Source: Elusimicrobia bacterium GWA2_66_18 | GTDB taxonomy: Bacteria; Elusimicrobiota; Elusimicrobia; UBA1565; UBA9628 | Direction: 5' to 3' | Assembly: GCA_001799675.1 (NCBI GenBank) | Contig: MGTX01000002.1 | Coordinates: 3,878 to 67,877, forward strand | Length of the DNA stretch: 64,000 bases | In this document: in pieces, positions 6,838 to 53,274 of the stretch | Layout: each line of letters starts with the position of its first letter | How positions within the stretch are numbered: position 1 is the first letter of the stretch | The notes under the pieces: model-generated | The model's database searches: none | What the model was told of the DNA's origin: nothing | What the model saw: the letters and a program-made list of their open reading frames with translations, nothing else | Program-made: the position numbers and the translations under genes

Positions 6838-7189
6838 GAGCGCCGTGCCCAGGAGCCTATTCTCCGCCTCCATCCGCGCCTGCGTCGCCCGCCGCGACCT
6901 GGCCGCGCTGTCGCGCGTGGTGCGTGCGGCCGGAGCCGACGCCCTGGTCGCCGCTTGGCCGAGCCTCTCGCCGCTGGAGCGGTTGGCCTCCTTCAAAATG
7001 CTCCCCCGGCGGGATGCGGCCGCGGCCTTCTCGGGGCTGGACCCCGATGGCCGCTGGCTGGCCTTTCTGGGCGCGCCGGCCGAGAGCGTCGCTCCCCTCC
7101 TCGAGGACGCGCCGCGCGGCGCGCGGCGAAGCCTGAGGCGCGTTTGCGCCGCCGAGCGCGAGGCGATGCGTCGGGCGCAGAGCCGATGA
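6836..7189 (+). CDS. Small protein resembling the MgtE N-terminal helical domain
   Basis: 117 residues from ATG 6836, or 114 from GTG 6845, which fits the TATAAT at 6832-6837 better. The helical sequence LSPLERLASFKMLPRRDAAA followed by FSGLDPDGRWLAFL resembles the helical repeats of MgtE_N or FliG-like domains, without the membrane part. It overlaps recO by ATGA and heads a recO-glyQ-glyS transcription unit. Function unknown; the similarity is by eye and weak. Confidence 0.7.
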   Translation: MSAVPRSLFSASIRACVARRDLAALSRVVRAAGADALVAAWPSLSPLERLASFKMLPRRDAAAAFSGLDPDGRWLAFLGAPAESVAPLLEDAPRGARRSLRRVCAAEREAMRRAQSR

Positions 7190-7848
7190 TTCTCAACGCC
7201 TTCGGAGTTTCCCTCGCGCGCCGCGCGCTCGGCGAGTACGACCGCCTGACGACCGTGTTCACCGAGGAACTGGGCAAGCTCCCGGTGCGCTTCGTGGGCG
7301 TCTGCCGCCCGGCAGGCAAGCTCAAGGCGTTGGCTGAGCCGGCCGTCTGGGCCGAGTACCGCCTCCATGTTGCCCCCCGCTCCGAGTTCGCCAAGTGCGT
7401 GGGCGGACGAATCGTGTCGACATTCCCGGCCGCGCGCGCGGACCTGGCACGCACCACCGCGCTTCTCTACTGCTGCGAGATCCTCGACAAGCTGACGGCC
7501 GAACGCGCGCCCAGCCCGGAGAAATATCGCTTGCTCTGTGCTACGTTGGCCGCGCTGGAGGCGTCCCCAAGCCGCTGGCTCTCCCTCTCTTTCGGCCTGC
7601 GCCTCATGGACCTGGCCGGTTTCGGCCTGCGCGAGCGCGCGCCCGCGCCCGCGGCCTCGGTCTGGGAGGCCTTGCACGAGACCGAGCCGGCCGAACTGGC
7701 CGGACTCGGCTTCGAGCGCGCCGCCGCGATGTCGGCGCGCCGCGCGCTCGAGGCGCACTTCGAGACGCAGACCGGCCGCCGCCTCAAGACCGCCGAATTC
7801 AGGGAATCCCTCCTCACCGTCCCACGTCCCGAAGGAGTCACCAAATGA
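7186..7848 (+). CDS. recO: DNA repair protein RecO
   Basis: 220 residues. The N-terminal OB fold is recognisable ([48 protein letters not shown]), followed by the helical domain. RecO anneals SSB-coated DNA and loads RecA with RecR. No CxxC zinc motif is evident in the C-terminal half. The ATG overlaps the stop of the preceding gene (ATGA), and its own TGA overlaps the glyQ ATG. recO next to glyQ-glyS is a common bacterial order. Confidence 0.85.
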
Positions 7849-39710: not shown

Positions 39711-40072
39711 GGACGCTGCGCGGCCGCGTGGTCCGCGGGACCCGCCTCGGTCGGCGGTTGGGGTTTGCCACCGCTAATCTGAAGGTCTCTCCCGGCGCGC
39801 GGCCGCCGCGCGGCGTCTGGCGCGTGAAGGTCTCCGGCACGACTTTGGGCGAGCGCCCGGCCGTCTGCAACGTGGGCGTGCGCCCCACGCTCGGCGGTCG
39901 CCGGCTGGTCGTGGAGGTCCACATTCCGGGCTTTCGCGGCGACCTCTATGGGCGCACCCTGAAGATTGGATTCCTCTGCCGGATTCGCTCCGAGAGGAAG
40001 TTCTCGAGCCTCGCCGCGCTCAAGGCCCGCATCCGTCTCGACGTGGCCTGCTTGACGCGAGGGCCGCGTTGA
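39707..40072 (+). CDS. Stand-alone riboflavin kinase (RibF C-terminal domain only)
   Basis: 121 residues from GTG 39707. It matches only the flavokinase half of bacterial RibF: RGRVVRGTRLGRRLGFATAN, where ATAN replaces the usual PTAN; VCNVGVRPTLGG; VEVHIPGFRGDLYGRTLKI with the catalytic Glu; and a C-terminal RKFSSLAALKARI. The FMN adenylyltransferase half (about 180 residues) is missing, and the gene starts exactly at the domain boundary while overlapping truB by four bases, so truncation by assembly error is unlikely. It should make FMN but not FAD. Its 3' end overlaps potC antisense by 53 bp. Confidence 0.88.
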   Translation: MRTLRGRVVRGTRLGRRLGFATANLKVSPGARPPRGVWRVKVSGTTLGERPAVCNVGVRPTLGGRRLVVEVHIPGFRGDLYGRTLKIGFLCRIRSERKFSSLAALKARIRLDVACLTRGPR

Positions 40073-40817
40073 GCGCCAGCAAACCGAACGTGGCGACAAG
40101 AAGGAGCACGGAGAGGGCGTTGATCTCTGGAGTCACGCCGAATTTCATCATGGAATAGACCTTGATGGGCATGGTGACGATGCCGATTCCGGCCAGGAAG
40201 AAGGAGGTCACGAAGTCCTCGAAGCTCACCGTGAAGGCCAGCAGGCACCCGGAGACGATGGCGGGCATGGCCAGGGGCAGGGTGACCTTCAGGAAGGCGG
40301 TCAGCTCCGTGGCTCCCAGGTCCATGGCGGCCTCCTCCAGGTGCGACTCGCCCATGGACTTCAGGCGCGCGCGCGCGGCCCCGACGGTGTAGGGCAGGCA
40401 GATGAGGGCGTGGGCGCAGGCGAGGGCGCCGAAATCCAGCTCGTAGCCCGCGCGCACGAGGAAGCTCAATAGGCCCACTCCCAAGGCCACCTCGGGCATC
40501 ATCAGCGGCGCGTCGAGCAGGGCGCCGTAGCCCTCTCGACTCTTGAAGGGGCGGTGCCGGGTCAGGGCATAGGAGGCGAGCAGGCCCAGGACGGCGGCGA
40601 TAGCCGCCGCGGCCGCCGCCAGCTCGAGGGATGTCAGCAGGGCGCCCAGCAGCTCCGCGTCGTGGAAAAGGAGCTGGTACCACTTGAAGGTGAAGCCGCG
40701 CCAGACTACGTTGCGGTGCGCGTCGTTGAAGGAGAAAACGGCCATCACGCCGAGCGGCAGGTACAGGAACGCGTAGAGCGCCATGCAGTAAAGAGAGAGG
40801 AGCCGGCCGTGCCTCAT
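40020..40817 (-). CDS. potC: Polyamine ABC transporter permease, PotC-like
   Basis: 265 residues from ATG 40817. Six membrane helices; the N-terminus has PLGVMAVFSFNDAHRNVVWRG, typical of PotC. The EAA loop reads EEAAMDLGATELTAFLKVTL. It overlaps potB by ATGA. The C-terminal 17 codons are antisense to the riboflavin kinase gene end (convergent overlap). Substrate class (spermidine/putrescine) is inferred from family and neighbours. Confidence 0.93.
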   Translation of the reverse strand: MRHGRLLSLYCMALYAFLYLPLGVMAVFSFNDAHRNVVWRGFTFKWYQLLFHDAELLGALLTSLELAAAAAAIAAVLGLLASYALTRHRPFKSREGYGALLDAPLMMPEVALGVGLLSFLVRAGYELDFGALACAHALICLPYTVGAARARLKSMGESHLEEAAMDLGATELTAFLKVTLPLAMPAIVSGCLLAFTVSFEDFVTSFFLAGIGIVTMPIKVYSMMKFGVTPEINALSVLLLVATFGLLALNAALASSRPRRDGCGP

Positions 40818-41677
40818 GCCTGGTCGTCCCAGCGGCGGTAGAGCCATAATCCGCCGACGAGGCAGGTCAACAGAAGGCAGGTCAGGGCCGCTCCAAAGGG
40901 CCAGTCCTGCGCCATCAGGAACTGGTTTGAGATGAGGTTTCCGAGCAGGTAGTAGCGCGGCCCGCCCAGGATCTCCGCGGTGAGGAAGTCGCCCAGGCAG
41001 GGCACGAAGGTGAGGAGGCTTCCGGCGATGACGCCGGGAAGGGACAGGGGTAATGTCACCTTGCGAAAGGCCGTCCAGCGGTCGGCGCCCAGGTCGTAGG
41101 CCGCTTCCACATACTGTCGCGGGATCTTTTCCAACGAGCCGTAGAGGGGCAGGACCATGAAAGGCAGGTAGAAATACACCAGGCCCAGCAGGACCGAGAA
41201 CGACGTGTACAGGATTGAGATCGGCGCGCTGATGAAGCCGAAGCGCAGCAGGGCTGCGTTGAGCAAGCCCTCCTTGCCTAGAATGATCATCCACGAGTAG
41301 AAAGCCACCAGAGCCGAGGTCCAGAAGGGGACCATCAGGCCGATGAGCATGGCGTTGCGCCAGCGCCCGGCGCGGAAGCTCAGGAAGTAGGCCAGCGGAT
41401 AGCCGAGCAGGAGGGTCAGGAGGGTCGTCCCCCCCGCAAAGCCCAGAGTGCGCAGAAGGACGGGAAGATACTTGGGATCGAAGGCCCGGCGGTAGTTGTT
41501 GAGGCTCAGGGTCCACAGGATCTCGCCGTAAGGGCCGTTCTTGGCCAAGGAGAGCAGGAGCAAGCCCGCGGCGGGCAGGACCAGGAAGACGATCATCCAC
41601 GCCGCGGCCGGGGCCAGCAAGAGGTGGCTGGCCAGCGGGCGGCGTCCGCCCAGCAGCCAGGACAGGGCTCGGTCCAT
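40814..41677 (-). CDS. potB: Polyamine ABC transporter permease, PotB-like
   Basis: 287 residues, six membrane helices, with an EAA loop VEAAYDLGADRWTAFRKVTL and the PotB-type N-terminus (LLLAPAAAWMIVFLVLPAAG). It pairs with PotC to form the membrane channel. It overlaps potC (ATGA), and its ATG shares its first base with the potD stop, so potD-potB-potC are tightly coupled. Confidence 0.93.
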   Translation of the reverse strand: MDRALSWLLGGRRPLASHLLLAPAAAWMIVFLVLPAAGLLLLSLAKNGPYGEILWTLSLNNYRRAFDPKYLPVLLRTLGFAGGTTLLTLLLGYPLAYFLSFRAGRWRNAMLIGLMVPFWTSALVAFYSWMIILGKEGLLNAALLRFGFISAPISILYTSFSVLLGLVYFYLPFMVLPLYGSLEKIPRQYVEAAYDLGADRWTAFRKVTLPLSLPGVIAGSLLTFVPCLGDFLTAEILGGPRYYLLGNLISNQFLMAQDWPFGAALTCLLLTCLVGGLWLYRRWDDQA

Positions 41678-42738
41678 CAGGAGACCTTCACGTCAGCCCA
41701 GACCTGGTTCCACATTTCGGATTGCTCCGGGTCCAAGATGTGGTGTAGTTGCAGTTGGCCCATGGTTTGCGGCGTCGGGTAGACGCGCGGATCGCGGCGC
41801 AGAGCCTTTTCGACGAGAGGGAAAGCTTTTGCGTTGGGCGTGGCGTAGCGCACCGAATTGGAGATCGATCCCGCGACTTCTGGTTCCAGGAGATAGTCGA
41901 TCAGGCGTAGGGTGTCCTCTCGGTGGCGCGAGCCTCGCAGCATGGCCAGGCAGTCCACCCACATGTACGTCCCCTCCTTGGGCAGGACGTAGTCGAGATC
42001 GGGGTTGTCTCGCGCGGCCTGGAAGAGGTCCCCGGACCAGGTCATGGCGAGATCGATTTCCCCCGCGACGAGACTGTTGAGGTAGGAGGAACTGGAGTAC
42101 TGCCTTACCAGTGGTTTCTGCCTCAAGAGGAGCTCTCGGACCTTGCGAAAATCTTCCGGATCGCGGGTGGTCTGGGGTATGCGCAGAAGCTGCATGGCGA
42201 CCGCGACGCAGTCCCGTACGTTGTCGAGCATGGAGATGCGATCCTTATACTTCGGGTCCCATAGGTCCCACCAGGAGCTCGGCTGCTTGGCGAGCTTGCG
42301 GCGATTGTAGGCGATGCCCGTGGTCCCCCAGAGATACGGGATGGTCGTCTCGTCGGGGTCGTAGGATGGGCGGCGGAAGCGGGGCGCCAGATTGCCCATA
42401 TTTTTGAGCGTGCCCGAGGGCACGGCATCGATGAGGTTGAGGGATTTGAAGCGCGGGATGAGATAGTCGCCGATGACGACAAGGTCATAGCCGCGCGCGC
42501 CTGCGCGGATCTTGGCGAACATCTCCTCTTCGTCGGCAAAAAGGTCGTAGCGCACGCTCACGCCGGCGCGTCGGGTGAACTCCGGCAGGGTGTCCTTGCC
42601 GATGTAGTTCGACCAGTTGTAGAAGTTGACGACTCGTCTCGTGTCGGCGCGGCGGCAGGCGGCCATCAGTGCCGGCATCAGAGGCGCTAGGACGGCGATC
42701 TTCAGGAAGTCCCGGCGGGTGGCGTCAGTCATCATCAT
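41677..42738 (-). CDS. potD: Polyamine-binding periplasmic lipoprotein, PotD-like, with Tat-type signal
   Basis: 353 residues from ATG 42738, inside a run of three ATGs overlapping the potA end. The signal peptide carries a twin-arginine motif (TRRDFLK) and ends in a lipobox (LMAAC), so a Tat-exported lipoprotein is predicted. The mature part has NFYNWSNYIGKDTLPEF, YDLVVIGDYLIPRF, PYLWGTTGIAYN and MTWSGDLFQA, characteristic of PotD/PotF binding proteins. Most PotD proteins are Sec-exported, so the Tat signal is a small peculiarity. Confidence 0.92.
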   Translation of the reverse strand: MMMTDATRRDFLKIAVLAPLMPALMAACRRADTRRVVNFYNWSNYIGKDTLPEFTRRAGVSVRYDLFADEEEMFAKIRAGARGYDLVVIGDYLIPRFKSLNLIDAVPSGTLKNMGNLAPRFRRPSYDPDETTIPYLWGTTGIAYNRRKLAKQPSSWWDLWDPKYKDRISMLDNVRDCVAVAMQLLRIPQTTRDPEDFRKVRELLLRQKPLVRQYSSSSYLNSLVAGEIDLAMTWSGDLFQAARDNPDLDYVLPKEGTYMWVDCLAMLRGSRHREDTLRLIDYLLEPEVAGSISNSVRYATPNAKAFPLVEKALRRDPRVYPTPQTMGQLQLHHILDPEQSEMWNQVWADVKVS

Positions 42739-43843
42739 CGGGCTCGAGAATATATACATCCTCGGGTTGAACCGCGGCGATGACCGGTACGCCGATGTCG
42801 TCGTGAACCGCGTAGCGGTCGCCCCCCGCTACGGCCGTCAGCATGCGCCCAGGCGATTTCTTGAACAGTTCCAAATAGATCTGGCAGGCATCGCCAAGGA
42901 AGACGGTGTCCTTGAGGGTCGCGGCAAGGCGCAGGGCGCCAAAAGGCAGTTCGTCTTTGTAATAAACTTTCACGCGTTCCGGGCGGATGGCGACCCGGAC
43001 GCGCTTGCCCGGCAAGGGGAGCCTCTCGCCGACGTCGAGCGGGACGTCCAGCTCGAATTCGTCTTCCAGCATCAGGTGCGCTCGGCCCGCGGCGGCGGGC
43101 AGAACTCTCGCCGAGAAGATGTTGGCGCCGCCGATGAAGTCGGCCACGAAGCTGGTTTTCGGAGATTCGTAGATTTCCCCCGGCGTGCCGATTTGTTCCA
43201 CGCGTCCCTGGTTGAAGACGGCGATTCGGTCGGACATGGTCATCGCCTCCTCCTGGTCGTGGGTGACGTAGACGAAAGCGATTCCCAGGCGCTTCTGGAG
43301 GTTCTTGAGTTCCAGCTGCATCGACTTGCGCAGCTTGAGGTCCAAGGCGCCCAGCGGCTCGTCGAGCAGGAGCAGGGCGGGGCGGCCCACGATGGCGCGG
43401 GCCAGGGCCACTCGCTGCATCTGTCCTCCGGAGAGGGAGGCGGTGCGCCGGCCTTCGAAGCCGGATAGCTTTACGAGCTGCAGGGCCTCGGCCGTGCGAC
43501 GGGCGATCTCTGCCTCGGGCGCTTTGCGCAGGCGCAGGCCGAAGGCGACGTTTTCGGCTACGTCCAGGTGAGGAAAGAGGGCGTAGTGCTGGAAGACGGT
43601 GTGGACGTCTCTCTCATAGGGCGGTTGGTCGGTCACGTCAAAGCCGCTGAGTTTTACGCGGCCCGAGTCGGGCGCCTCGAAGCCGGCGATGATGCGCAGG
43701 GTGGTGGTCTTGCCGCAGCCCGATGGCCCCAGTAAGGTCATGAACTCGCCCTTGCGCACGAAGAGGCTCACGTCGCGCAGGACCACGCTGCCGCCGAAGG
43801 ACTTCGTCAGCGGGCCGATCTCGAGAAGCGTCTCGTCGCTCAT
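42725..43843 (-). CDS. potA: Polyamine ABC transporter ATPase, PotA-like
   Basis: 372 residues. Walker A GPSGCGKTT, Q-loop VFQHYALFPHLDVAENV, signature LSGGQMQRVALARAI, Walker B LLLLDEPLGALD, switch His in YVTHDQEEAM, and a C-terminal TOBE-like domain (VAIRPERVKV). It energises PotBCD. ATG 43843 overlaps the stop of the aminotransferase gene (ATGA). The GATGATGATGAC tail overlaps potD, giving an Asp-rich C-terminus. Confidence 0.95.
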   Translation of the reverse strand: MSDETLLEIGPLTKSFGGSVVLRDVSLFVRKGEFMTLLGPSGCGKTTTLRIIAGFEAPDSGRVKLSGFDVTDQPPYERDVHTVFQHYALFPHLDVAENVAFGLRLRKAPEAEIARRTAEALQLVKLSGFEGRRTASLSGGQMQRVALARAIVGRPALLLLDEPLGALDLKLRKSMQLELKNLQKRLGIAFVYVTHDQEEAMTMSDRIAVFNQGRVEQIGTPGEIYESPKTSFVADFIGGANIFSARVLPAAAGRAHLMLEDEFELDVPLDVGERLPLPGKRVRVAIRPERVKVYYKDELPFGALRLAATLKDTVFLGDACQIYLELFKKSPGRMLTAVAGGDRYAVHDDIGVPVIAAVQPEDVYILEPDDDD

Positions 43844-45045
43844 CCCTTGAAGGCGGCGACGGCGTCGCGGATGAGGCGGAAGGCCGCCTCGGCTTGGGGC
43901 TCGGAAATCACCAGCGGGGGCGCCAGGCGGATGGTGTTCTCGTGGGTGTCCTTGGCGAGCAGGCCGCGGCGCATGAGGTCCTCGACGAGGGGGCGCACGC
44001 GGCTGGTGAATTCGAGGGCGAGCATGAGGCCTCGGCCGCGGGCCTCCTTGAGCGCGGGATGATGCAGGGTTTTGAGCCGCGCGAGCAGGACGGCTCCGAC
44101 CTTGGCGGACTTGCGCGCCAGGTCCTCGCCGCGAATGACGTCCAGGGCGGCCAGGCCGATGGCGCAGGCCAAGGGGTTGCCCCCGAAGGTCGAGCCGTGG
44201 GTCCCGGGGGTGAAGAGCGACATCACCTCTTCCTCCCCGACCAGGGCGGAGATGGGATACAGGCCTCCGGAAAGGGCCTTGCCGAGGACGAGAAGGTCGG
44301 GCTTGACGCCCTCGTGGTCGCACGCGAACATCCTGCCCGTGCGGCCCAGCCCCGTCTGGATCTCGTCGGCGCACATGAGGACGTTGTACATCGAGCAGAA
44401 GCGGCGCACGGCCTTCAGGTAGCCCTTGGGCGGGATCACCACGCCGGCCTCTCCCTGGATGGGCTCGAAGAGGAAGCCGACGGTGTTGCGTCCGATGGCG
44501 CTCTTGAGGGCGTCCGCGTCGCCGTAGGCGATGACGCGGAAGCCCGGCGTGGCGGGGCCGAAGCCCGTCGACGAGGCCGGATCCGAGGAGAAACCCACGA
44601 TGGTCGTGGTGCGGCCGTGGAAATTGTTCGCGCAGACCAGTATCTCCGCCTGGTCCTCGCCGACGCCCTTTCGTTGGTAGCCCCAGAGGCGCATGGCCTT
44701 GATGGCGGTCTCCACGGCCTCGGTTCCCGAGTTCATGAGCAGGGCGCGGTCCTGGCCCGTGAGCGCGCAGAGACGCTCCAAGAAGGGGCCCAGGAGCTCG
44801 TTGTGGAAGGCCCGCGAGGTCAGGGCGACCTTTCCGAGCTGCTTCCTGGCCGCGGCCACGATTCGGGGATGGTTGTGTCCCTGGTTCAGGGCGGAGTAGG
44901 CCGCGAGGAAGTCGTAGAAGCGTTTGCCCTCGGCGTCCCAGACGAAGGGGCCTTTGGCGCGCGTGATGACCACCGGAAGCGGGTGGTAGTTGTGCGCGCC
45001 GTACTTTTCGGCGAGCGCGATGGCCTTTCGGCTGCGGTCTCCCAT
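43840..45045 (-). CDS. rocD: Class III aminotransferase, ornithine aminotransferase-like
   Basis: 401 residues from ATG 45045 (TTG 45051 possible). PLP-dependent fold type I. EKYGAHNYHPLPVVITRAKG and FYDFLAAYSALNQGHNHP are typical of ornithine delta-aminotransferase; NSGTEAVETAIKAMRLWGYQ, EPIQGEAGV, DEIQTGLGRTGRMF and the PLP lysine in VLGKALSGGLYPISAL follow. It would convert ornithine and 2-oxoglutarate to glutamate semialdehyde. It is co-transcribed with potABCD. TAGAAT lies 7 nt before the ATG. Confidence 0.88.
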   Translation of the reverse strand: MGDRSRKAIALAEKYGAHNYHPLPVVITRAKGPFVWDAEGKRFYDFLAAYSALNQGHNHPRIVAAARKQLGKVALTSRAFHNELLGPFLERLCALTGQDRALLMNSGTEAVETAIKAMRLWGYQRKGVGEDQAEILVCANNFHGRTTTIVGFSSDPASSTGFGPATPGFRVIAYGDADALKSAIGRNTVGFLFEPIQGEAGVVIPPKGYLKAVRRFCSMYNVLMCADEIQTGLGRTGRMFACDHEGVKPDLLVLGKALSGGLYPISALVGEEEVMSLFTPGTHGSTFGGNPLACAIGLAALDVIRGEDLARKSAKVGAVLLARLKTLHHPALKEARGRGLMLALEFTSRVRPLVEDLMRRGLLAKDTHENTIRLAPPLVISEPQAEAAFRLIRDAVAAFKG

Positions 45046-48550: not shown

Positions 48551-48565
48551 CACCATCGGATTATA
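48551..48565 (-). promoter_or_regulatory. -10 box near the dehydrogenase start
   Basis: TATAAT (48560-48565, minus). An ATG lies 3 nt and an in-frame GTG 6 nt downstream (48553), while the SD-preceded ATG is at 48532. The start is therefore ambiguous: leaderless GTG or leadered ATG. Confidence 0.45.
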
Positions 48566-48612
48566 TCAATTCGTCGGGGATAATCGCCGCAATGAAATCA
48601 GATCGGCTTCCG

Positions 48613-48780
48613 TCACGCCTGGCTGACTTCGCACTCCCACAACCCGCGCGTCTCTGCGTCCGCCAGAGCCAGGATGTCCGACTGCCTCCAGCCGTCGCAG
48701 TCCGAGCTCGACAGCAGGTATTTCGCCGAGAACTCATGGCGGGCGAAGTGGCGCTCCAACAGGAAAGGCTTGAGCGGCAT
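48613..48780 (-). pseudogene. N-terminal remnant of a class I/II aminotransferase
   Basis: Reads 55 residues from ATG 48780: PLKPFLLERHFARHEFSAKY followed by LLSSSDCDGW and ILALADAETRGLWE, then CEVSQA and stop. The first about 48 residues match the characteristic start of a group of class I/II PLP aminotransferases (xLERYFAxxEFxAxYxLSxSDC). The remaining about 300 residues, including the PLP lysine, are absent. The break lies next to the aldehyde dehydrogenase promoter, so a deletion removed the rest. Probably non-functional; matching was from memory. Confidence 0.65.
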
Positions 48781-48875
48781 TGGAGGGGTATAGGATTTCG
48801 TCGTCTTGGTCCGCTGCGGCCTTCGGGAAGACCTGTTAAGCTCAGGGAGCTTCGCCGACTCTTCCCGGCAATGAG

Positions 48876-49952
48876 CTACATGCTGTCAATGCGATTTGTG
48901 TATCCTTCGATAAATTGGCGAGCTTTCTGGCATTGCTCACCGCTAATCCCTGTAGCAGAGCTTCGTTGCGACTTTCCCTTGCCGCCGAAATCTCTCATGA
49001 GGTTATGTCGGCTGTCATTATGACCCTCTTGAAAGACGATATGGCCGACCTCATGCGCCAGAGTCACAATAGCATCCTCATAAATATTTTTTGCAGCGAC
49101 ATGAGGATCATTGTAGTCCGTAAGGAATATCGAAAACTGAGGAAAGGTCTTTTCAGCCAGTTTTCGTGATTCATCATTTTCATATATTTCTCTACCCCGG
49201 ATTACAGCCGTACCTTTGTTTGAAAGTTCAGGCCCAAATCCCATTCTGTCATCATCGTATTTCAAAATCATAACGGGGATGCCTTGGGGTTCATACTGTT
49301 TCTGGAGGAATCCCCAATGCGCCTCAGTTGCTTGAGTCATGCCAAAAAGGTTGGCAGAGAATACTAGATCAAGCCCTTGCGACGAAAATATGCGAATTGG
49401 GACGGGAGATTTAAGAGTAATACCACAATGAGCGTAAATCTTGTTGAACTGGTCCAATTCATCTTGGATTCGCGTCTCGTTGTAGACCGAGTCAAAAGTA
49501 AGAATCGTGATAGATAACTCGATCATGTCATTTTTAGAATAGGACCCATACCATGGCGGAGAAAATTTCTGTGGGTTTAGCGTCTTTAAGGAAAGCAGGC
49601 TCGGCACGTTAAAACTAGCTATTGTTTCTTTGATTTTGTTTCTGTATTGGTCATCGACCGTTGACAACTCATTTCTAAATTCACGAAAAACGCGGGATAA
49701 TCGGGCGCTTTCCTCTGTCAATGCTGCAATAGTAGCCGGGTCTTCGCCAGCTTTAGCGGTCAACTGTCGAATCGCAATATTATTTTCCTTGGGGTCCTTG
49801 ATGCCGTTGAGATATTGAATGCGCGCTTGCTGTTCCCTGATATCCTTAGTAACTTCATTATATTTTTCCAGGAAAGACTGTCCCCCAGATTCCGCAAAGA
49901 CTCCTGAAGTTAACCCGATAGTTAAAATAAACGACCCGTATAGCCTTTTCAT
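48876..49952 (-). CDS. Secreted zinc metalloprotease, matrixin-like, low-GC
   Basis: 358 residues. Signal peptide YGSFILTIGLTSGVFA, then a helical region (about 25-110). The C-terminal catalytic part has a zinc motif VTLAHEVGHIVFQEGHNDSR followed by HNLM. The HExxH and following His and Met recall metzincins/matrixins, but the third His is one residue further than in the standard HExxHxxGxxH. A late GEQCQKAR is also seen in related secreted proteases. Base composition is strikingly lower in GC than all neighbours and codon use is different, arguing for recent transfer. No cognate inhibitor was recognised. Confidence 0.84.
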   Translation of the reverse strand: MKRLYGSFILTIGLTSGVFAESGGQSFLEKYNEVTKDIREQQARIQYLNGIKDPKENNIAIRQLTAKAGEDPATIAALTEESARLSRVFREFRNELSTVDDQYRNKIKETIASFNVPSLLSLKTLNPQKFSPPWYGSYSKNDMIELSITILTFDSVYNETRIQDELDQFNKIYAHCGITLKSPVPIRIFSSQGLDLVFSANLFGMTQATEAHWGFLQKQYEPQGIPVMILKYDDDRMGFGPELSNKGTAVIRGREIYENDESRKLAEKTFPQFSIFLTDYNDPHVAAKNIYEDAIVTLAHEVGHIVFQEGHNDSRHNLMRDFGGKGKSQRSSATGISGEQCQKARQFIEGYTNRIDSM

Positions 49953-50057
49953 GATTTTTCACTCTCAATACGGCATTTATTCACCGGCATCGTAGACGTC
50001 GCTAAGCAGCGGTCCATATCTCAAGTTTAGCCGCCCCAGGCTCGGGTTCAAGAGCCG

Positions 50058-50170
50058 ATGGACCTAAAAATAATGACCCCAAAGACCTGTGCGATGGGGC
50101 GCCCAAAGTCAGGCGTCGCGCGCCGGGATGGCGACTCCAGGACGAAGGCCCCATTTTTTTATAGGTCCAT
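50058..50170. repeat. Inverted-repeat element with internal terminator-like hairpin
   Basis: Bounded by perfect 8-bp inverted ends ATGGACCT (50058-50065) and AGGTCCAT (50163-50170), extendable to ATGGACCTAAAAAT versus ATTTTTTTATAGGTCCAT with a small gap. Inside, ATGGGGC (50094-50100) pairs with GCCCCAT (50148-50154), followed by a T run to 50160, and a nested GTCGC/GCGAC stem lies between. It could be a strong intrinsic terminator, a small non-coding RNA, or a MITE-like element. It marks the region between the low-GC gene and the plus-strand genes. Confidence 0.5.
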
Positions 50171-50221
50171 TTGATCGTTTCGGGAACCCTAAAGGCCCCT
50201 GACCTGGTTTAGGTCCTCTTT

Positions 50222-50227
50222 TATAAT
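50222..50227 (+). promoter_or_regulatory. -10 box before the membrane protein/radical SAM unit
   Basis: TATAAT in an AT-rich context. Transcription from here would start near 50234, before the 30-codon ORF (50259), and continue into the membrane protein and radical SAM genes. Confidence 0.45.
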
Positions 50228-50258
50228 AGTGAGGATCTCCGCAGTTCCGCAGGAACCC

Positions 50259-50351
50259 ATGACGAGAGTTAAAAAGAGCATCGCCTGCCTTATCGCTCCT
50301 GAGGATCGCCTTTACAATGGGGGGGTCCGTTTTGTGAAATCAAAACGCTGA
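50259..50351 (+). CDS. Possible 30-residue leader peptide or small protein
   Basis: ATG 50259 with AGGAA 3 nt upstream, downstream of a TATAAT. Encodes TRVKKSIACLIAPEDRLYNG and GVRFVKSKR, then TGA 50349-50351, 17 nt before the next gene. Basic at both ends. It is too short to be supported by composition; it could be a leader peptide, a remnant, or chance. Confidence 0.3.
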   Translation: MTRVKKSIACLIAPEDRLYNGGVRFVKSKR

Positions 50352-50368
50352 TCCTTGGCATCAGTCTA

Positions 50369-51352
50369 ATGGCTCCCCTGCATTCATCAACGGCCTTGCG
50401 CGCGGCCTCCGGCCGACGCCTTCCTCTCGATGCCGCCCACGTCAGAGCCGTCGACCTCCTGCATTCCCGCGCCAAGAAACATGGTCTGGGAATCGTATTC
50501 TTCGGCGGCTGGGGCCTGCCCGAGCCTGGGGGAACCTGGCGCGCCGGCCCAGTCGCGGTCCTGGTGGACGCCCTTCGGCCCGAGTCCGAGCTTCATGTTT
50601 TAGCCGAGGACATCCAGACCGGCTTGGAACGCGAGGGCGGACGCCCCGTGCAAGTGCTCGCCCGATTCCAAGGGCGGATTCCGCGCTGCGAGGCGGATTT
50701 CAGCGACGGCGTCGCCGAACTGCTCGCGCTCCTGCCTGACAATGCCTTGAGGGAGACTTCTGATTTGCGAAAAGCGGCACGGGAGCTTTACTGCCCCATT
50801 AATCTTCCCCGGCGCCTTCTCGGCAGCCGCGATTTCGGCAACGGCCTCCTGGGCGCAGCGGTGTTCACCGCGTCGTTCTCCCTGGCTCTTGGATTTCACG
50901 GCATCGCTCCGACCTTGGGTTTTGTGTACGGTCTTTTCGGCCGCTACCTGGCCCGGGGGCGGGCGTGGATATCCTTCTCGATGGGCAATGGGCCGAAGGG
51001 CAATGCCGTTGCCCTGGCGGTCGACGCGGTTCATGGGATCGCTCTGATGACTTTGGTCATCAACCCGGCCGCCGGGCTCGGGATCAGCCTGCGCCGCATC
51101 ATCGGGACCTCCGTCTGTCACACCCTGTCGAAGGGGGCTATGCGGCTTTTTATCGATAAGCGCTTCTCGGTGGAGGGGCACGACCGGCAAGCCATGGGCG
51201 TAACGCTCTCGACTCTCGCCGATTTCTGCCATGGGCTGACCACGAGCTTCATGTATGCCGGATGGGCGGCGGCCGGCGCCGTTCAAGCAGGCTTGGCCTG
51301 CTGGTGCGTCTGGGTTCATTTCTGGCCGCGCAAAGCCGGAGAATCGGCGTGA
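50369..51352 (+). CDS. Unknown protein with soluble N-terminal half and membrane C-terminal half
   Basis: 327 residues, not recognised. The first about 165 residues are soluble, with VDLLHSRAKKHGLGIVFFGG and VLVDALRPESELHVLAEDIQ. The second half has several hydrophobic helices (LLGAAVFTASFSLALGFHGI, LGFVYGLFGRYL, AVDAVHGIALMTLVINPAAG, MYAGWAAAGAVQAGLACWCV) with loops GNGPKGNAVAL and RRIIGTSVCHTLSKGAMRLF. The stop overlaps the radical SAM start (GTGA), so the two should act together. The start is uncertain. Confidence 0.72.
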   Translation: MAPLHSSTALRAASGRRLPLDAAHVRAVDLLHSRAKKHGLGIVFFGGWGLPEPGGTWRAGPVAVLVDALRPESELHVLAEDIQTGLEREGGRPVQVLARFQGRIPRCEADFSDGVAELLALLPDNALRETSDLRKAARELYCPINLPRRLLGSRDFGNGLLGAAVFTASFSLALGFHGIAPTLGFVYGLFGRYLARGRAWISFSMGNGPKGNAVALAVDAVHGIALMTLVINPAAGLGISLRRIIGTSVCHTLSKGAMRLFIDKRFSVEGHDRQAMGVTLSTLADFCHGLTTSFMYAGWAAAGAVQAGLACWCVWVHFWPRKAGESA

Positions 51353-53274
51353 TCGCCGAACGTTTCAGTCGCGCCCGCCGACGCTATCGTCGAGAGGACG
51401 GCGCCCGCATCGCCTTGGTCGTGCTGCCGTCTCCGGATTACGACGTGGCGACCTTCAATCTCTCCAGCGCCGAGTTGGCCGGCTATCTCCGGCACGAACA
51501 CCCGGAACTTCGCGACGGCATCCACTTCATCGAGCCCGATATCGTTCTTTCGCGCACCGAGAGCTTGACGCGCAGCGCAGGATACTGCCTGGAGGCTCTG
51601 CGTCGAATCCAGCCCCACATCCTGGGTGTTTCGGCCAAGATCGGATCGCACCGCCACCTCCTCGATCTGCTGGAAGCCCTTCGGGAGGAGCCTTGGGCGC
51701 AATCCTGCGTACTCATCGTCGGCAACGTTCTCTCCACCTTTTCGCACGATGTCTTCTCCGAGCGGCACCCCGAGGCCCTCTATGCCGTCGGTGATGGGGA
51801 ACTGGCCTTGGAGGCCGCCTATAGGGCCCTCAAGGACGAAGCCGTTCGGCTCGAGGACATTCCCAGCGTCGCTTATCGGAAGGAGGGGGAACTCAAATGC
51901 ACGCCGCGGCGAATGCTCGATCATGCGCGGGTGAGCTGGCTGCCGGCCCTCGACATGCTCGATACCGCCATCGAGCGCAAGGCCGACATCGTCGTTCGCG
52001 CCACGACGGGCTGCCCCGCCTCCTGCACCTTCTGCTCCATCAAAGCCGTCAACTTGGAGTCCCAGCCCACGGGCCGCCTCCAGGACATGGGCTGGGAGTC
52101 CTACCCGCCCGCGCGCACCGCGCGCCTTTTCGCCTTGCTGCAAGAGCGCGGCGTCAGGCATGTGAACTTGGCCGATGATGAGTTCGGGAATACCGATTTT
52201 CGTTTCATCGAGATGTTCGCCGACCTTCTGATCGCCCAAAACAATGCGATCACGTTCAACGTCTCCATGCGCCTTGACGCCTTTTGGAGCCCGGCCATGC
52301 CCGCCGCGGAGGTCGCGCGCAGGCGGGGGATTCTGCGCAAAATCTCACGGGCGGGGCTTCAGCATCTTTTCGTCGGCGCGGAATCCGGCTCGGCGAGCCA
52401 GCTCAGGCGCTACGGCAAGGGATACCCTCTCGAGGTCAATGAGCGCACCATTGATATCCTCCTCGAAGAGAATATCCAGCCCTGCCTGGGCTTCATTCCA
52501 TTCGACGCGTTCGTGACCCGCGCCGAGCTCGAGGCGAACCTGAAATTCCTGGAGACTCTCGTGGGGGGCCGGGCTCTCTTCGAGCTCGTCGCCAGCCCCA
52601 TCAATGTCATGAGGGTCCAGAGGGCCACGCCCTACGAGCGTCTGCTCCAGAGACGCGGTCTTCTCCGCGGACTCGAGGACAATCTCACTTTCCACCAAGT
52701 GGAGTTTGCCGACCCGCGGATGGGCGCGGTGGCTCTCGCGGGCCAAGAGTGGTTCCGCGAGGTGCTTTCCCTGCGTTATCCGATCATCCAGCTCTACCGG
52801 ATGTCGCAGACGAGCCATGCCTTCGACCCCGCCAGTCACCGCCGCTCTCGGACGGCCATTCGCGCCTTGCACCAGCTCGACGTCGGTTACGTGCGGGCGA
52901 TGCTCGCCGTCTTCGACGGCGACATAGAGCCCGCGGAAATGCGCGATTGCGCGGCCAATCCGCTCGTCAACGGATTCGCGGGACTCCAGCGGGCGCGCGA
53001 GATCTGGGCCGAATCGGCCCGCAAGGCCGAGCCCGCCTTCGCGGCCATTACGCTGGGGTTCCGCCAAAAAAGGGCGCCCCTTGAACTCGAGATGCGCGGT
53101 CTTCTTGACGAAGCTTACAGTTGCGAGGCGGAGACCGAGCCTCCGAGGAATGCGGGCGCGCGCTTGAGGAACTTGCCGTGGCCGGTCTTGCCCGCCCACT
53201 TGCCGCCCTCGACCATCGCCTCGCCCCGGGAGAACACGTCGCGGATGGAGCCCTTCACCGTGACGCCCTCGTAG
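51349..53274 (+). CDS. B12-binding-domain-type radical SAM protein
   Basis: 641 residues from GTG 51349. The N-terminal Rossmann-like domain (about 20-165) resembles a cobalamin-binding domain but lacks an obvious DxHxxG, so base-off B12 binding is doubtful. The radical SAM motif CPASCTFC (CxxxCxxC) binds the 4Fe-4S cluster. Later motifs include VNLADDEFG, SMRLDAFW, LFVGAESGSASQLRRYGKGY and CLGFIPFDAF. This is the BchE/methyltransferase/methylthiotransferase-like superfamily; the reaction cannot be assigned. The last about 53 codons run antisense through the end of the dihydropyrimidinase gene and do not look native. Confidence 0.84.
   Translation: MIAERFSRARRRYRREDGARIALVVLPSPDYDVATFNLSSAELAGYLRHEHPELRDGIHFIEPDIVLSRTESLTRSAGYCLEALRRIQPHILGVSAKIGSHRHLLDLLEALREEPWAQSCVLIVGNVLSTFSHDVFSERHPEALYAVGDGELALEAAYRALKDEAVRLEDIPSVAYRKEGELKCTPRRMLDHARVSWLPALDMLDTAIERKADIVVRATTGCPASCTFCSIKAVNLESQPTGRLQDMGWESYPPARTARLFALLQERGVRHVNLADDEFGNTDFRFIEMFADLLIAQNNAITFNVSMRLDAFWSPAMPAAEVARRRGILRKISRAGLQHLFVGAESGSASQLRRYGKGYPLEVNERTIDILLEENIQPCLGFIPFDAFVTRAELEANLKFLETLVGGRALFELVASPINVMRVQRATPYERLLQRRGLLRGLEDNLTFHQVEFADPRMGAVALAGQEWFREVLSLRYPIIQLYRMSQTSHAFDPASHRRSRTAIRALHQLDVGYVRAMLAVFDGDIEPAEMRDCAANPLVNGFAGLQRAREIWAESARKAEPAFAAITLGFRQKRAPLELEMRGLLDEAYSCEAETEPPRNAGARLRNLPWPVLPAHLPPSTIASPRENTSRMEPFTVTPS

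Follow-up and report, generated by a model that had tools for sequence, protein, structure and literature searches.

What is the 113-bp inverted repeat in the 416-bp intergenic region between two divergent genes, at the point where a low-GC gene gives way to genes on the plus strand? In the 64-kb window (the whole stretch of DNA analyzed), a sequence-only reading had offered three options, a mobile repeat, a small RNA with a terminator or a terminator by itself, and had favored a mobile or recombination-linked element. We find that a terminator, alone or as the end of a small RNA, fits best among the three and that the mobile or recombination-linked element is unsupported. Our best reading, held with moderate confidence, is a single-copy hairpin resembling a Rho-independent terminator on the plus strand between the two divergent genes.

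Sequence and geometry of the inverted repeat

The features of the locus, by window coordinates, are as follows.

48876–49952, minus strand: low-GC gene encoding 358 aa, with no Pfam (E 0.001) or NCBIfam (E 0.1) family
50058–50066, no strand assigned: left outer arm ATGGACCTA, 9 bp perfect, with weaker pairing that continues to 50073
50077–50099, plus strand: alternative weak hairpin CCCCA/TGGGG (−6.3 kcal/mol), with bases common to the terminator stem
50094–50160, plus strand: terminator-like hairpin, with stem 50094–50100/50148–50154, a 47-nt partly folded loop and T7
50162–50170, no strand assigned: right outer arm TAGGTCCAT, read from the sequence
50199–50227, plus strand: promoter-like site CTGACC-17-TATAAT, a 10/12 match, upstream of the gene at 50369
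50201–50215, plus strand: small hairpin GACCTGGTTTAGGTC between the two promoter hexamers, with a third AGGTCC at 50211–50216
50369–51352, plus strand: gene for a 327-aa protein, with no Pfam or NCBIfam family
51262–53274, plus strand: gene for a radical SAM protein, above the Pfam cut-off

Direct reading of the sequence confirmed that terminal inverted repeats are present, but their perfect length is 9 bp rather than the 8 bp first given. With 16-nt arms, 14/16 positions pair; with the arms extended to 50044–50189, pairing is 75%. Nested within the outer arms is the 7-bp inner stem ATGGGGC/GCCCCAT, which ends in a T run as had been described: T7 occupies 50154–50160 on the plus strand, its first T doubling as the final base of the stem. 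The computed fold energy of 50093–50155 is −27.9 kcal/mol. The weak hairpin at 50077–50099 and the terminator stem would be mutually exclusive, judging from their overlap. The third AGGTCC and small hairpin reported downstream were also found, the two overlapping each other.

Two further observations concern this intergenic sequence. A small inverted repeat, GTTTTG/CAAAAC (50329–50346, −4.9 kcal/mol), lies upstream of the 50369 start, and GGGTTCAAGAGCC resembles a tRNA T-arm by eye. ARAGORN detected no tRNA genes in the whole 64-kb window.

A terminator-like hairpin and its chance expectation

The window contains 10 runs of at least six Ts on both strands combined. No other run abuts a closed hairpin as strong as that at T7 50154–50160, at −27.9 versus −19.5 for the next best, and it is for this reason that a terminator is the best fit among the options first offered. 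T7 is also the only one of the 10 runs outside a greedy map of ORFs of at least 100 aa, a map that may include false ORFs. As in Rho-independent terminators, a G+C-rich stem runs directly into the T run on the plus strand, and the computed fold is strong. Unlike them, the hairpin is nested in a longer repeat and has a loop of 47 nt, only partly folded, against the 3 to 8 nt scanned as a short loop; because of this loop, a standard terminator scan does not list the hairpin at 50094–50160. Loops longer than 3 to 8 nt can also work in intrinsic terminators. A further difference is that we see no convincing plus-strand gene upstream to terminate: the ORFs on that strand to the left come from mechanical calling, most of them lie antisense to better-supported genes, and one, 48592–49023, has no Pfam match. 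Also against a terminator, in the minimum-energy fold of 50058–50170 the T run is taken up by pairing with the outer arm, and none of the relatives carries the hairpin. However, single-copy status without conservation is compatible with a local signal as much as with a relic. Short-loop terminator-like sites showed no clear enrichment in the window (15 versus 11.0 expected, 18 versus 12.6 and 9 versus 13.5; around the element, 2 versus 4.2), in a promoter and terminator scan that covered 60 kb (all but 40001–44000). Over these 60 kb, promoter-like sites numbered 14 versus 4.6 expected from shuffles; one with TATAAT follows the hairpin, at 50199–50227, which favors a terminator.

The evidence for the terminator-like hairpin consists of its sequence, its computed folds and its rarity in shuffles. 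From these, we infer that it may be transcribed, terminate transcription and act as an insulator. RNA polymerase would arrive from the left, having either read the low-GC minus-strand gene in antisense or begun at an intergenic start. The ATGGGGC...GCCCCAT hairpin would then form in the RNA and the polymerase would halt within the Ts, near 50160; the promoter-like site at 50199–50227, which is predicted to drive the plus-strand genes, lies about 40 bases farther on. The outer ATGGACCTA/TAGGTCCAT arms would extend the helix, with A-rich sequence facing the T run. A stop signal placed just ahead of a promoter would shield the plus-strand genes from stray transcription entering from the left; alternatively, the hairpin would end a short antisense RNA.

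The main rival to a terminator is an inverted repeat due to chance, or a relic without present function, such as a leftover gene end in a variable interval. We regard this as possible but hold it tentatively, and the counts bear on it in both directions. Outer repeats of this grade (9 bp perfect, at least 14/16, span 60 to 160) number five in the window, three of them overlapping at 7113–7234, and occurred 0, 3, 2, 2, 1 and 0 times in six first-order Markov simulations of 64 kb; about one or two repeats like ATGGACCTA/TAGGTCCAT are therefore expected per 64 kb. The fold energy of 50058–50170 has a z of −2.1 on the plus strand and −2.0 on the minus strand. A z of −2.1 or lower on the plus strand is reached by 25/566 window tiles, and the wider span 50040–50240 gives only −1.5. 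The gapped self-complementarity score is likewise reached by 8/153 window tiles (its own and seven others). The lack of conservation and the differing content of the interval among relatives are also as expected of chance or a relic. Against this stands the rarity of the structure in its immediate setting, where outer arms and T-run hairpin alike are about 1-in-750 events, one nested in the other. Such arms arose in 2/1,500 simulated 416-bp intergenic regions (rate, 0.0013). Among 3,000 dinucleotide shuffles of the intergenic region, a 7-pair stem abutting at least six Ts arose in four (0.13%), and a hairpin of −25.8 or lower abutting such a run in 0.13%; observed there were 7 pairs and −26.6. 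The self-complementarity score was matched by 3/600 dinucleotide shuffles of the same region. All of these chance tests were post hoc, on a feature already pointed out. Together, these results indicate that the inverted repeat is real and locally unusual, but not exceptional for the window.

We consider it unlikely that the hairpin ends a small or antisense plus-strand RNA that would start at 49837–49864 or within the intergenic region, run over the 5′ part of the low-GC gene, and stop at T7. A promoter-like CTGATA-16-TATATT does lie at 49837–49864 on the plus strand, and T7 would provide the terminator-like end. However, the promoter match is only 9/12, in low-GC DNA where matches come easily, and there are no relatives to show conservation. 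The element matched no Rfam covariance model, even at E 5, and a known RNA family was rejected on this ground.

The mobile-element reading and the gene interval among relatives

A mobile element, MITE-like as first favored or a foldback, that arrived together with the foreign gene or next to it is in our judgment very improbable. Its appeal lies in the outer arms, which look like terminal repeats (9 bp perfect, 14/16), in the length of 113 bp and in the variable genomic interval. Nevertheless, the element has one copy in the 2.79-Mb assembly (94.68% complete). A 191-bp query against this assembly returned itself and 27 short matches at E 0.13 or worse, a two-ended pattern search found the element only, and a search for the right end that tolerated two mismatches gave five matches, its own included, versus seven for a control. 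The 57 relatives yielded short matches at most: 52 of them had a match at E ≤1, the best was 33 bases at E 0.002, and among the matches listed, spans were 37 bases or less and many fell on the G+C-rich core. Single-copy status and absence from relatives, which had been named in advance, together with the lack of a transcript, as grounds for abandoning the idea, are thus both observed in the own assembly and the 57 relatives. Plasmid and phage collections gave no match at E 0.1. Patterns with the exact ends occurred in two viral and two genome records, none of whose interiors was more similar to the element than shuffles were. The proposed search for flanking duplications, at offsets −2 to 11, revealed only 2-bp AT or TA coincidences. 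On copy number, relatives and the lack of a target duplication, we rejected a mobile element; nothing supports a single decayed insertion, and the hairpin is tied to an insertion by nothing found. Like bacterial MITEs such as Correia, ERIC and Chunjie (reviewed in PMC10969869), the element is short and intergenic, with inverted terminal arms; it differs from them in being single copy, in having a target duplication of at most 2 bases and in lacking copies in the relatives and collections searched.

In contrast to the mobile element, the foreign-gene junction proposed in the same reading held up. The minus-strand gene at 48876–49952 has 44% GC versus 66% for the window, none of the 339 other genomes sampled from the phylum matches it at E 1e-5, and the interval in which it lies varies among relatives. 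No homologues of it were confirmed in a genome contig collection with a single-sequence query, which finds close relatives only. By eye, its protein begins with what resembles a signal peptide and carries HEVGH, a zinc-protease-like motif. The 327-aa protein matched in 6/339 other phylum-sample genomes, with homologues about 39 to 44% identical, and the window's radical SAM protein had no match beside these homologues (up to 1.5 kb of flank). NCBIfam matches of the radical SAM protein, several of them to B12-binding types, were all below cut-offs.

The permease, dihydropyrimidinase-like amidohydrolase and aldehyde dehydrogenase genes of the cluster recur in relatives (the latter two named by Pfam, the permease by reading). 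The amidohydrolase matched at E 1e-60 in 46/57 relatives. Loci from 29 of these 46 were examined: the aldehyde dehydrogenase follows the amidohydrolase in 22 and was not found within 11.4 kb in one (G004), and six lay outside this judgment owing to the extent of the DNA. The two genes adjoin in 10 of the 22 loci, with 12 to 118 bp between aligned ends, and are separated by 382 to 4,900 bp in the other 12. The window's own 4,616-bp interval, which holds the 44% GC gene, the 327-aa protein gene and the radical SAM gene, matched none of these 12 longer intervals at E 1e-3. Judged from these loci, 48557–53170 is a variable spot in the clade, and because interval content varies between two conserved neighbors, the region is plausibly an islet. 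Internally duplicated stretches were seen in four of the 12 longer intervals corresponding to 48557–53170. At 53115–53274, the radical SAM ORF runs into the convergent amidohydrolase gene at the 3′ end of the latter. In relatives, the last 39 residues of the ORF (632–670) match only the antisense of the amidohydrolase gene, and for this reason an insertion may have created the end of the ORF.

Regulatory readings and meaning

We give very little credence to an operator, in which a regulator would bind AGGTCC arms, one pair of them within the promoter spacer. Three copies of TAGGTCC fall within 157 bp, out of six in the window, and GACCTGGTTTAGGTC sits between both promoter hexamers. However, AGGTCC is common in the window, with 85 matches where shuffles predict 37.5, so little can be read into its occurrence in the arms. 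None of five neighboring proteins matched a Pfam regulator family, two of them matching no family, and GACCTN5AGGTCC occurred 15 times in the genome on both strands versus 18 for a reversed control pattern. An operator of AGGTCC half-sites was rejected for this lack of genome-wide enrichment. Just as improbable is the combined proposal of a plus-strand switch, in which CCCCA (50077–50081) and GCCCCAT (50148–50154) would compete for TGGGG (50095–50099), an upstream signal would choose between antiterminator and terminator of a leader or antisense RNA, and the 38-aa open frame at 50058–50174, on the same stretch as the element and with no Pfam match, could be a leader peptide.

The inverted repeat is thus real and of an ordinary kind: single copy, and probably a terminator-like hairpin. 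Little depends on it. Its value is mainly negative, in that an inverted repeat at a foreign-gene boundary does not by itself make a mobile element. If the hairpin does terminate transcription, it would be a further insulating signal in front of a set of genes that varies from relative to relative.
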